Positions 13,298-23,758 of a stretch of 64,000 nucleotides of DNA are shown one piece after another. The position numbers were made by a program, and so were the translations under genes. The notes under the pieces were generated by a model. It searched no databases and had not been told where the DNA came from. It saw only the letters and a program-made list of their open reading frames with translations. Each line of letters begins with the position of its first letter. Position 1 is the stretch's first letter. The stretch is from Edaphochlamys debaryana (Eukaryota; Chlorophyta; Chlorophyceae; Chlamydomonadales). The stretch is from contig JAEHOE010000117.1 in NCBI GenBank assembly GCA_016858145.1, positions 1 to 64,000 on the forward strand. The letters run 5' to 3'.

Positions 13298-13693
13298 GAG
13301 CTATGGACTGCTCCCCACATGTGCGGGAAAAGGGGGTTGGGGAGGGGAAAAAACCCCGGATTCCACGGTGCGTGGGGGGGATTAGCCCCTCGGCATATAT
13401 AATTACCAGAGCCCGCATTTTTGACAGCGCACAGATCGCTTCCAGCTCAGCTGCTATAGCATAAGGAAGCTAGGGGTGAGCCTCCGGGCTGGTGCGCGTG
13501 GCCGCCCCCGCAAGTTGGCCCTGCGACCATCGCAACGCTCTCCAACCCTATGCCGCACCGGCCACGCGTACCCTTGAGACCCGCCCCACCGTTGCCCATA
13601 CTCACATAGACATTAAATCAGCACATACGGAGGACAGAAAGAGCTGCCGGTGGTCTCCATGGGAGCGATGCTAAGTTCATGCACTGCTGCTAG
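13298..13693 (+). repeat. Left terminal inverted repeat of KDZ transposon
   Basis: 396 bp, matching the reverse complement of 23362-23758 end to end. I count about six or seven substitutions plus one single-base indel. The inner edge is sharp: both copies end in GCACTGCTGCTAG and then diverge. The transposase ATG is 29 bases inside this edge, so the repeat probably carries the promoter. Confidence 0.93.
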
Positions 13694-13721
13694 TCGGGTC
13701 TAGTTCACCTACCTCACCTAA

Positions 13722-16700
13722 ATGGGCAAGGCGCGTGCCCATAAGAGTGCTCAGCAAAGGAAGAAGAGGGAGCACGATAAGAAGAAGGGCAGACTTACAA
13801 AGCCTGGCCTGGCTCAGGGCCTGGCTAGTCACAAGCTCGCCGGACATGTGAGGGCAGCAGCTCGAGCGCACGATAAACGGCACAAGCAGAAGCCTCTGGG
13901 CGGGACTGGCTTGCCCGCTTGTGACGATGACTACGGGACTGGGTGGCGCTATGACGAGGATGACAACGATGACGACGACTGGTGCTCGGCAGCCAGTGAT
14001 CTGGAGGGCCTGGCGGCCCAACTCAGCGACGACGAGGAGGAGGACATGAGCGACCATGGCCTGCCTTACGACCCGGCTCTCGCCGGTGCCTACCTCCACT
14101 TCTACTATGCCGCACACGTAGCTAGAGCTGCTCTACTGGCCGAGCAGCGGGCTGCCATGTGTCGCACGGTCCAAGCGGCGGCCGAACATGTTGAGTGCCC
14201 AACGTGCCACCGGCACGGGAGCCCTGCTGCCGCCCTCAGCCGCGAAGTCATCATCATCACCTGGGACCAGCCCGTAGAGGTCAAGGTACCTCGGCGTTGG
14301 TGCAGCGAATGCAGGCAGTACTTCTCCGTGCCGCCGTGCGCTGTCGACTGCCTCCCGGACACTGCGCTGGGCCTGACCCTGCCAAGCAGCAAGGACTCGT
14401 ACGTTGCTCTGTGGTGGCATCAGACGCTGCCCCAGCAGTTTGACGTGCTGGAGCGCTTTACGCGGCACATAAGCGCAGACCGCTTCTGTGCTGGCCTGCT
14501 CTCAAACTGGGAGCAGAACAGCGCTTCACTCCCGGCACGCCTGCCCGCCATGACTTTACGGAGGAGGCTGCGACCCGTCCTCTTAGCGTACCACTACCTC
14601 CAGGGGCTGTGCGCTGACTTCCCCGAGCGTATCAGTGGGTGGCCCTCTGGTTCCCTGAACTCGTGTCCGTGCTGCGGCTGCTCAGCCACAGTACAGCCAC
14701 GGGCGGCCGGCTCTGGCTCTGGCCTGACGGGCCGGCCGACGGAGCCAGCGGACGCGGGGGCGCTGGGCCGTGGGGAAGGCGGGGCAGCCCCAGCCGCACA
14801 GCCTGTGGCGGCGGCCGCTTCGGGCTGTGGCTCTGGCCTGACGGGCCGGCCGACCAAGCCAGCGGAGGCGGGGGCGCTGGGCCGTGGGGAAGGCGGGGCA
14901 GCCCCAGCCGCACAGCCTGTGGCGGCGGCCGCTTCGGGCTGTGGCTCTGGCCTGACGGGCCGGCCGACCAAGCCAGCGGAGGCGGGGGCGCTGGGCCGTG
15001 GGGAAGGCGGAGCAGCCGCAGCCGCACAGCCTGTGGCGGCGGCCGCTTCGGGCTGTGGCTCTGGCCTGACGGGCCGGCCGACCAAGCCAGCGGAGGCGGG
15101 GGCGCTGGGCCGTGGGGAAGGCGGGGCAGCCGCAGCCGCACAGCCTGTGGCGGCGGCCGCTTCGGGCTGTGGCTCTGGCCTGACGGGCCGGCCGACCAAG
15201 CCAGCGGAGGCGGGGGCGCTGGGCCGTGGGGAAGGCGGGGCAGCCGCAGCCGCACAGCCTGTGGCGGCGGCCGCTTCGGGCTGTGGCTCTGGCCTGACGG
15301 GCCGGCCGACCAAGCCAGCGGAGGCGGGGGCGCTGGGCCGTGGGGAAGGCGGGGCAGCCGCAGCCGCACAGCCTGTGGCGGCGGCCGCTTCGGGCTCTGG
15401 CTCTGGCCTGACGGGCTGGCCGACCGAGCCAGCGGAGGCGGGGGCGCTGGGCCGTGGAGAAGCTGAACCGGCGGCCGGAGCAGGGCGAGCAATGGCTGCG
15501 CCGGGGGTGCACATCGGGCTTACCAGCGGGCCTGATAGCGCAGCGGCGAGCTTGGGCGGAATCGACGGCTTCCGCAGCGCTCTTGCAGCTACAGCCGGGA
15601 CGTCATCGGAATGGGGCATTCCTCTCCGTGGGGGAGTCGAGTCCTGTGGCCTGGGCCCTGGGGTGATTCATTCGATCCACTTTGACGGAAACTTCAAGCT
15701 GGACGGAATCTTCTGGCGCCGCCGCCAGCACCTCCCCTCTTACACACAGCAGTACCCACAGCTGCCGCGACGACGGGTGCTGCTCAGCAACCAAAGCGTA
15801 CTCAGCACGCTTGGTGATGGTGCCGCCTCGCGAGACGTGGGGCCAAACCATTGCTCCAACTTCGCGGCCGACAAGGTGGTGGCCGAGTCGTCAAGCAGGG
15901 TGCGTCTGACGAGCCCTCAAGTAGCGCAAGCAGTGTGTCGTGTGTAGTGTGCCGTGCAATCATTTGCGCCTGGGTCTTCCTCCAACATGCTCACTTATGC
16001 CCCTTATGTGCGCAGAAGCTCGTCACGGGCATGGGCTTTGCGCTCTGCCGTCACGGCGTGCTGTACCGGATGATGAACTTTTTCACCGGCGAGCGGCACG
16101 CGTACGCAACCGTGGCGCTGGACTCCTTCCTGCAGCGGCAGACGGGAGTCCGGTTTTGGTGGTACGACATATCGTGCCGGTACAGCAAGTCCTTCGGCAC
16201 ATGGCTCGCCGAGCAACCCCCTCACGTGCAGGAGGTGGCCGGAAACGTGCGCTTCCTCATCCCGCCCTGGCATGTTTACGCCCACAAGTGAGTAAGAGAG
16301 TTGCGGCCGGAACGCACTTGGACCTGTGCCTGAACCTCGTTTCCAACCCCTTTGTAGCTACGCGTGTCAACAGGCCTTCGGGCACGTCAATGCCCCTGGT
16401 GCTGGCCGCGGCACGGGCGAGCCTGCAGAGATTGCGAACGCACAGCTTGGGCTGTACGGCAACGTCTGGCGCTACATGGCGCCCGTGAGTAAGGACTCCC
16501 ATGCGGACCGCCAGGGCAGCCTCTACTCAGCCAACGTGGTGAACCACATGGCTGCGCACGTGTCGTACATGCTGCAGCGTGCAGACGCAGACCTGGAGGC
16601 GATCAGCATGCGCATCTCCTCTCTGGAGGAACGCCTTGCCGAAGCCCGCGGGATACCCCAGGACCAGGCAAGATGGGCTGCTGTGCTCCTAGCGGGGTCG

Positions 16701-22300: not shown

Positions 22301-23321
22301 TGCGGGTGGGAAGTGGGCTGCGGTGACCAGCGGGGGGCGAGGCAGCGGCGGCGGCAGCGGCGGCTGCAGCCCCCGCGTCAGCCATGCCGCCGCCGCCGTG
22401 CTGCCCCGAGCGCGCGCTGCGGGTGGGAAGTGGGCTGCGGTGACCAGCGGAGGGCGAGGCGACGGTGGCGGCAGCGGCGGCTGCAGCCCCCGCGTCAGCC
22501 ATGCCGCCGCCGCCCTGCCCCGAGCGCGCGCTGCGGGCGGCGGGCGAGGCGGCAGCGGTGGCAGTCGCGGCCGCAGGCTCTTGGGTGACCCCGGTGCCAC
22601 CCAAAGCTGCGTCAGCCTCCGCTGCCGCCTGGATATCCTCCCACGCCCTGCTGAGCACCGCCCTTGCGTCGCGGCATGTCTCGCCTGGGCACTGGCACCC
22701 CCGCACGCCGTCCGCTGAGAGGATCACCTGCCACATCTTGTACTCCCCGTTCTTCCCAGGGCGGCCCCCATTGCACAGGTGCCGCTGCCAGTTAGATCCG
22801 AATGCAGCTTTGAGGATGGGCCGGATCACCATCGTGAAGACCGCACGCGCCAGCACCTTCTCCAGGTCGGAGGGGTGTTGGATCGGTGGCAGGTCAGGCG
22901 CTGTGCGCCTGCCCTTCACCTGGACCTGAGGAAGGGGCTTCTGCAGCAGCAGAATAGCCTCGAGACGCGCTGCAGCTTCATCCGCCAGGTCGTCCACCAG
23001 GTCATCGTGCTCCATCCACCCGACCCGCAAGCTGTGAACGAGCCCCGACGAAGGCCGCGTGTAGAGCAGGCATGCTCCGGGCAGACAACGAATGACTTCG
23101 TTGACGAAGGCTTCTGGCCCAAACTCCGCATACAGCTTGCTGAACCTGTTCAGAAGGCTGCGATGCCTGTCAGCCAGCTGCCTCGCCACGGGTCCGGCCT
23201 GCACAGGACAGGTAGCAGAGGAGCAGAGGAGTCTCAGATGCAGGAGAGGCACGTAGAAGAGGTAACACGGTCCTTCACGGTCGTGCCACCGCGTGAAGAG
23301 CTTTCCCGAAACTGCTACCAT
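19303..23321 (-). CDS. KDZ-transposon companion protein with AT-hooks
   Basis: Minus-strand exons: 23321-21781, 21697-21540, 20236 to about 20110 (3' end unresolved), and 20037-19303. The start is the ATG at 23321, 40 bases inside the right inverted repeat; alternatively coding resumes at an acceptor near 23200. Exon 1 encodes a globular region with Cys motifs (CNGGRPGKNGEYKMW, CQCPGETC), then Ala/Gly-rich 38-39-residue repeats, then a short conserved-looking block (FPWEVPLVSTITHTPGR). Exon 3 begins with an AT-hook (GPKRGRPPKQ). Exon 4 has a second (PRGPGRPPKSG), RG-rich stretches, an acidic Ser/Glu region and a basic end. DNA binding in the minor groove is inferred from the hooks. I do not recognise the globular domain; a role in transposition is only a guess. 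Confidence 0.7.
20283..21470. repeat. 188-bp satellite filling an intron, six copies plus a partial
   Basis: The landmark gagggcacatcgtaactcg starts at about 20283, 20471, 20659, 20847, 21036, 21226 and 21414, a period of 188-190 bp. Copies differ by only a few bases. On the minus strand the array occupies nearly all of the intron between the companion gene exons at 21540 and 20236. Long open frames across it are repeat artefacts. Confidence 0.95.
21900..22560 (-). repeat. 114-117-bp coding repeat in the companion gene, about five copies
   Basis: Units encode GGGGMADAGAAAA followed by poly-Ala and SPPAGHRSPLPTRSARSGQ, 38-39 residues per unit. Landmarks are at 22150, 22267, 22381 and 22498, with a diverged unit nearer 22030. 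The unit length is close to the transposase array although the sequences differ. Confidence 0.9.
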
Positions 23322-23361
23322 CAACACCACTTGTGCGCACCTTCGGCATGTCTGCTAACCT

Positions 23362-23758
23362 CTAGCAGCAGTGCATGAACTTAGCATCGCTCCCATGGAG
23401 ACCGCCGGTAGCTCTTTCTGTCCTCCGTATGTGCTGATTTAATGTCTATGTGAGTATGGGCAACGGTGGGGGCGGGTCTCAAGGGTACGCGTGGCCGGTG
23501 CGGCATAGGGTTGGAGAGCGTTGCGATGGTCGCGGGGCCAACTTGCGGGGGCGGCCGCGCGCACCAGCCCGGAGGCTCACCCCTAGCTTCCTTATGCTAT
23601 AGCAGCTGAGCTGGAAGCGATCTGTGCGCTGTCAAAAATGCGGGCTCTGGTAATTATATATGCCGAGGGGCTAATCCCCCCCACGCACCGTGGAATCTGG
23701 GGTTTTTTCCCCTCCCCAACCCCCTTTTCCCGCACATGTGGGGAGCAGTCCATAGCTC
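23362..23758 (-). repeat. Right terminal inverted repeat of KDZ transposon
   Basis: 397 bp, the reverse complement of the left repeat. The outer end is ...CCATAGCTC at 23758, followed directly by (ATT)n. The inner edge CTAGCAGCAGTGC begins at 23362. Confidence 0.93.

Follow-up and report, generated by a model that had tools for sequence, protein, structure and literature searches.

A KDZ-domain element with long terminal inverted repeats and its copies in the green alga Edaphochlamys debaryana

The element, its predicted genes and its target

The window, a stretch of 64,000 nucleotides of E. debaryana DNA (contig JAEHOE010000117.1), contains an element of 10.5 kb (13298–23758) enclosed by inverted repeats. 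The left terminal inverted repeat (TIR; 13298–13693, plus strand, 396 bp) starts with GAGCTATGGACTGC, a terminus common to other copies, and the right TIR (23362–23758, minus strand, 397 bp) is 98% identical to it, a match of 396/397 bp that is far above chance and that bears out the long, roughly 98% identical repeats described in a previous sequence-only reading of this DNA. The terminus of the other copies is GAGCTATGG, except for one end of copy C295, which reads GACCTATGG (copies are named by contig). Arrays of (TTA)n adjoin the element on both sides in the same orientation, 150 bp on the left (13148–13297, plus strand) and 237 bp on the right (23759–23995, plus strand). Because the other copies, C40 excepted, end at the same terminus without such arrays, the (TTA)n is target DNA rather than part of the element, and it constitutes the tail of a LINE-like element whose presumed 3′ part lies at 10998–13147 (plus strand). 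This LINE-like 3′ end, which matches RNase H weakly (E 0.057) and contains a C..C..H..C stretch, has seven near-full matches in the genome. In two of these seven, the window and C40, the transposon sits inside the (TTA)n tail; two of the remaining five were inspected and have short, uninterrupted tails, and the (TTA)n ends of the inspected LINE-like copies vary greatly in length. Copy C1 likewise lies at a LINE-like 3′ end, one related to that in the window (68% identity over 129 window bases). About 100 bp past the right array, a perfect (CCCTGG) array of 30.8 units occupies 24102–24286. Scanning the window for Rfam families and tRNAs gave no matches, and nine of its long frames outside the element are without a Pfam match at E 0.01.

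The plus strand of the element carries a predicted transposase gene of four exons with GT/AG borders, encoding 1274 amino acids, as previously proposed. Predicted exon 1 (13722–15899) contains the start, a CxC-type cysteine cluster, a linker made of a 38-aa repeat and the motif HFDGNF; exon 2 (16016–16287) contains GFALCRHG, YDISCRY and PPWHVYAH; exon 3 (16358–17162) contains GTGEPAE; and exon 4 (17312–17881) ends in a frame that is not used in other copies. The linker, which joins the cysteine cluster to the catalytic part, is encoded by a 114-bp minisatellite of 6.6 units (14709–15462, plus strand). All five motifs named in the sequence-only reading are thus present, and its assignment to KDZ held when the spliced domain was compared with Pfam PF18758 (E 2.2e-24, 86.8 bits, cut-off 26.6; E 1.8e-13 for a single exon alone). 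The aspartates of HFD and YDI and the glutamate of GEPAE are presumed to be the catalytic residues. The cysteine pattern C..C...WC..C is found in the window protein and in 7 of 19 relatives, and the Pfam CxC models gave no match.

These 19 proteins, listed by a profile search in which the best 7983 word-sharing candidates were scored, come from Chlamydomonas reinhardtii, Volvox, Pleodorina and Gonium, apart from one that carries no name, and have the KDZ domain and motifs in common with the window protein. The nearest proteins found are from C. reinhardtii, at 47% identity in an alignment that covers 44% of the query. The HFD pattern occurs in 17 of the relatives, YDI in 14 and GTGEPAE in 10, several relatives looking fragmentary, and the order of the motifs agrees with the exon plan predicted for the window. 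The repeat-rich linker is variable, measuring 333 aa in the window and 101 and 316 aa in two C. reinhardtii proteins. P0001 (CHLRE_08g373354v5, named CxC3-like in UniRef), to which this identity belongs, resembles the window protein in motif order and linker position and is alignable in the C-terminal region, although its linker is shorter; an AlphaFold2 model of it has a mean pLDDT of 50, with values below 50 over most of the catalytic part, and does not show the RNase H-like fold of the superfamily. P0001 and P0002 (CHLRE_08g373361v5) are near-identical KDZ proteins with neighbouring locus tags, separated by a repeat expansion in the linker where the window carries its 38-aa repeat; P0002 ends earlier. 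In a tree built from 10 volvocine KDZ rows, the window stands next to P0007 without starred support; the tree does not name the subgroup.

A second gene is predicted on the minus strand, in keeping with the two-gene layout suggested before. Its exon plan, which is based on splice signals and on frame continuity in C40 and C4 only, comprises exon 1 (23290–23349), exon 2 (21781–23198, holding a 117-bp minisatellite at 21924–22537), exon 3 (21540–21697), exon 4 (20088–20236, low end approximate) and a last exon (19303–20037); a 188-bp minisatellite of 6.4 units (20281–21481) lies within a predicted intron. Exon 4 encodes GPKRGRPPK, and the last exon encodes PRGPGRPPK and an acidic tail; both GRPPK stretches we take to be AT-hook-like. 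In the window, about 115 bp are deleted at about 20088–20099, including the 3′ part of exon 4 and its splice donor, and the last exon can be joined in frame only in copies without this deletion. The deletion is common to the window, C173 and C33, and the sequence is kept in all four of C193, C82, C40 and C4 (C1 is not comparable there). As judged from its sequence, gene 2 of the window copy is probably damaged.

Copies in the genome and evidence for transposition

A search of the genome (141.9 Mb, 502 contigs) with the TIR revealed at least 26 matches at at least 16 loci, ten of them two-ended and six one-ended, with the same terminus in the other copies. Terminal repeats without this interior, which the sequence-only reading had named as evidence against itself, were not what was found: the KDZ part scores above the Pfam cut-off in six of the ten two-ended copies, and the others keep pieces of the transposase. 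In C4, C295 and C67 only the 5′ end of the transposase remains, and C141, which lies in reverse, has a KDZ piece in the expected direction that reaches 25 bits and stays below the cut-off. The closest copies, C173 and C33, are 99.91% and 99.94% identical to the window over 10458 aligned bases, the full length of the element. A second subfamily (C193, C82, C40 and C4) is 98.9–99.2% identical to the window over the aligned parts, whereas C295, C67 and C141 are internally deleted elements of 2.3–3.3 kb. By sequence divergence C1 is an older copy, at 94% to the window in its TIR, 96–97% in its two longest pieces and about 90–96% in the others. Besides the eight matches of this family above the cut-off and the weak C141 piece, the genome contains 25 other KDZ-domain matches (e.g., L029–L041 and L052), at least some of which belong to clearly different families, for instance one with repeat-laden frames around IDFGCQIRSTWRR.

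The coding capacity of the copies differs. In the window, a G run (17778–17782, plus strand) is one base longer than in all seven other copies compared (C173, C33, C193, C82, C40, C45 and C1), a private difference that shifts the frame and replaces the C-terminus, and the transposase of this copy, as assembled, is probably damaged. The transposase frame extends over 1294 codons in both C173 and C33; it stops at codon 1006 in C193 and C82 and at codon 1196 in C40, where exon 3 carries a preceding +1 difference. In C45 it is open for 1208 codons and a deletion spans the last intron, and in C1 there are 2 stops within the codons compared. Relative to the window, C173 and C33 show 5 and 2 changes in the transposase, all non-synonymous, while dN/dS is 0.26–0.66 for C193, C82, C40, C45 and C1, values that rest on few changes and in which selection is weakly readable. 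The predicted frame of gene 2 comprises 975 codons in C40 and 936 in C4 and is broken at codon 401 in C193 and C82. The copies are of three sorts: C173 and C33 have a full transposase frame, in C40 and C4 the predicted frame of gene 2 is whole, and others are internally deleted. The window copy groups with C173 and C33 and probably yields no working protein itself. Thus, of the earlier description of an intact two-gene copy with both ends visible, the ends stand and the intactness does not, given the G-run difference and the gene 2 deletion, a correction of the first impression. As none of the copies examined has both predicted frames whole, supply of proteins in trans is suggested rather than shown.

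Evidence for transposition comes from the flanks of the copies. Identical 8-bp sequences flank eight of the ten two-ended copies, and six of these lie outside simple repeats: C173 (GGTAATTC), C33 (GCCGCGCC), C193 (GAATCGGC), C82 (GGTGGGGC), C67 (CTCCACTC) and C295 (CATGATGT). For the window and C40 the identity of the flanks is uninformative because both sit inside (TTA)n. The remaining two-ended copies, C4 (L020) and C141 (L018), have no matching 8-bp flanks and may be rearranged or recombined. When the flanks of C173 were joined on one copy of the 8 bp, five uninterrupted matches were obtained in the genome, four of them 100% identical over 492 bp and the fifth, of 493 bp, shown as 100%. The target of C173 is therefore represented by an exact empty site within repeated sequence, and since it is unoccupied at five other places, the family has transposed. 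The same comparison for C193 retrieved no unoccupied paralog from the genome; the full halves matched only its own two flanks.

Taken together, these features make it very probable that the element at 13298–23758, with its inverted repeats of 396/397 bp, is a DNA transposon of the KDZ superfamily and encodes a predicted DDE transposase. The transposase would cut at the ends of the repeats, movement likely proceeds by cut and paste rather than in another mode, and copies may be mobilised in trans. A very unlikely alternative is that the element is dead and that segmental duplication or gene conversion, not transposition, multiplied its copies. This would fit with the probable breakage of both genes in the window copy, with the lack of both whole frames in any copy examined and with the uneven identity of second-subfamily copies to the window along their length. 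However, the flanks of the loci differ, yet similarity ends at the same terminal base, different loci carry different 8-bp duplications, and the exact empty site of C173 speaks for insertion. The KDZ transposon family has likely jumped recently, to judge from its near-identical sister copies, its 8-bp flanking duplications and the empty site. The suggestion that the element may be active does not hold for the window copy as assembled. With its clean ends, an exact empty site, 99.9% identical sister copies and short internally deleted copies, the family would make a usable green-algal system in which to test how KDZ elements excise and insert; in green algae, KDZ transposons are poorly characterised.

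Gene 2 and the choice of target

Gene 2 may encode a DNA-binding protein that is accessory to the transposon and possibly aids target choice, a reading that we hold tentatively, at somewhat below even chances. In support of this assumption, a 239-aa piece of gene 2 has ten matches in the genome, all ten at loci bearing the same TIR, and the full predicted frames of C40 and C4 both contain the two AT-hook-like GRPPK stretches. On the other hand, gene 2 gave no Pfam AT-hook match, no relatives were found at E 0.1 among the 7994 best word-sharing candidates from 5.8 billion proteins, and in the copies most alike (window, C173 and C33) its C-terminal part is not in frame under the predicted plan. 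It has also been considered that gene 2 represents a diverged TET/JBP dioxygenase, since fungal KDZ elements are described as bearing TET/JBP genes (PMC12730594) and a weak match to Pfam Tet_JBP (E 0.19–0.2) is obtained. When this exon is taken from C40 instead, the match is lost, and the sole candidate histidine of an HxD motif is an arginine there; solved structures yielded three chance-level matches and no dioxygenase, and the fold model of gene 2 (pLDDT 44) is unusable. With an E value of only 0.2 that vanishes in C40, the TET/JBP identity was rejected as extremely improbable.

A preference for (TTA)n has been weighed as well. Across the genome the pattern (TTA)13 starts at 660 positions, which amounts to at most about 26 kb, and two of 16 loci in (TTA)n are far above even placement, in a comparison that is post hoc and in which the arrays flanking the element are themselves counted. 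Strict (TTA)n targeting was rejected since, judged by whichever ends were seen, 14 of the 16 loci lie outside (TTA)n. That the family constitutes a split two-component system homing to AT-rich tracts, in which one subfamily would supply the transposase and the other an orphan AT-hook protein steering insertions into the (TTA)n tails of a LINE within an otherwise GC-rich genome, is an unlikely proposal.

Relation to known KDZ elements

KDZ elements of C. reinhardtii and its relatives have already been reported (Craig et al. 2021), and the window family is perhaps included in the supplementary library of that study. A literature search, from whose coverage subscription papers are mostly absent, found the structure of the family nowhere described, a weak negative. 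With KDZ elements published from algae and the fungal KDZ1–3 similar to it in size and ends, the window family adds to a known group. Among the closest known elements is Kyakuja-3_cRei of C. reinhardtii, likewise a KDZ element of a volvocine alga, which moved in culture and has an 8-bp duplication and TIRs, these being described as imperfect (PMC10828217). Zisupton and Dileera, which can be compared by the description of their target site duplications (TSDs) and TIRs, share the 8-bp TSDs, and TIRs are stated for Zisupton, whereas the window element is without a recognised TET/JBP gene (PMC12730594). The fungal Kyakuja families belong to the KDZ group as well; as described, they lack TIRs, end in CA..TG and make TSDs of 7 bp (PMC12730594). 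The window family differs from them in its 8-bp TSDs, GAGC ends and long 396-bp TIRs, and so falls outside Kyakuja as delimited for fungi. A further likeness exists to KDZ1–KDZ3 of Cryptococcus, which are described as mobile elements of about 9.2–11 kb with TIRs, a KDZ domain and a CxC domain (PMC12810828). These differ from the algal family in their fungal host, in the naming of CxC1, and in TIRs of 139–241 bp that are shorter than those of the window, with TSDs of 8 bp (KDZ1) or 4–8 bp (PMC12810828).
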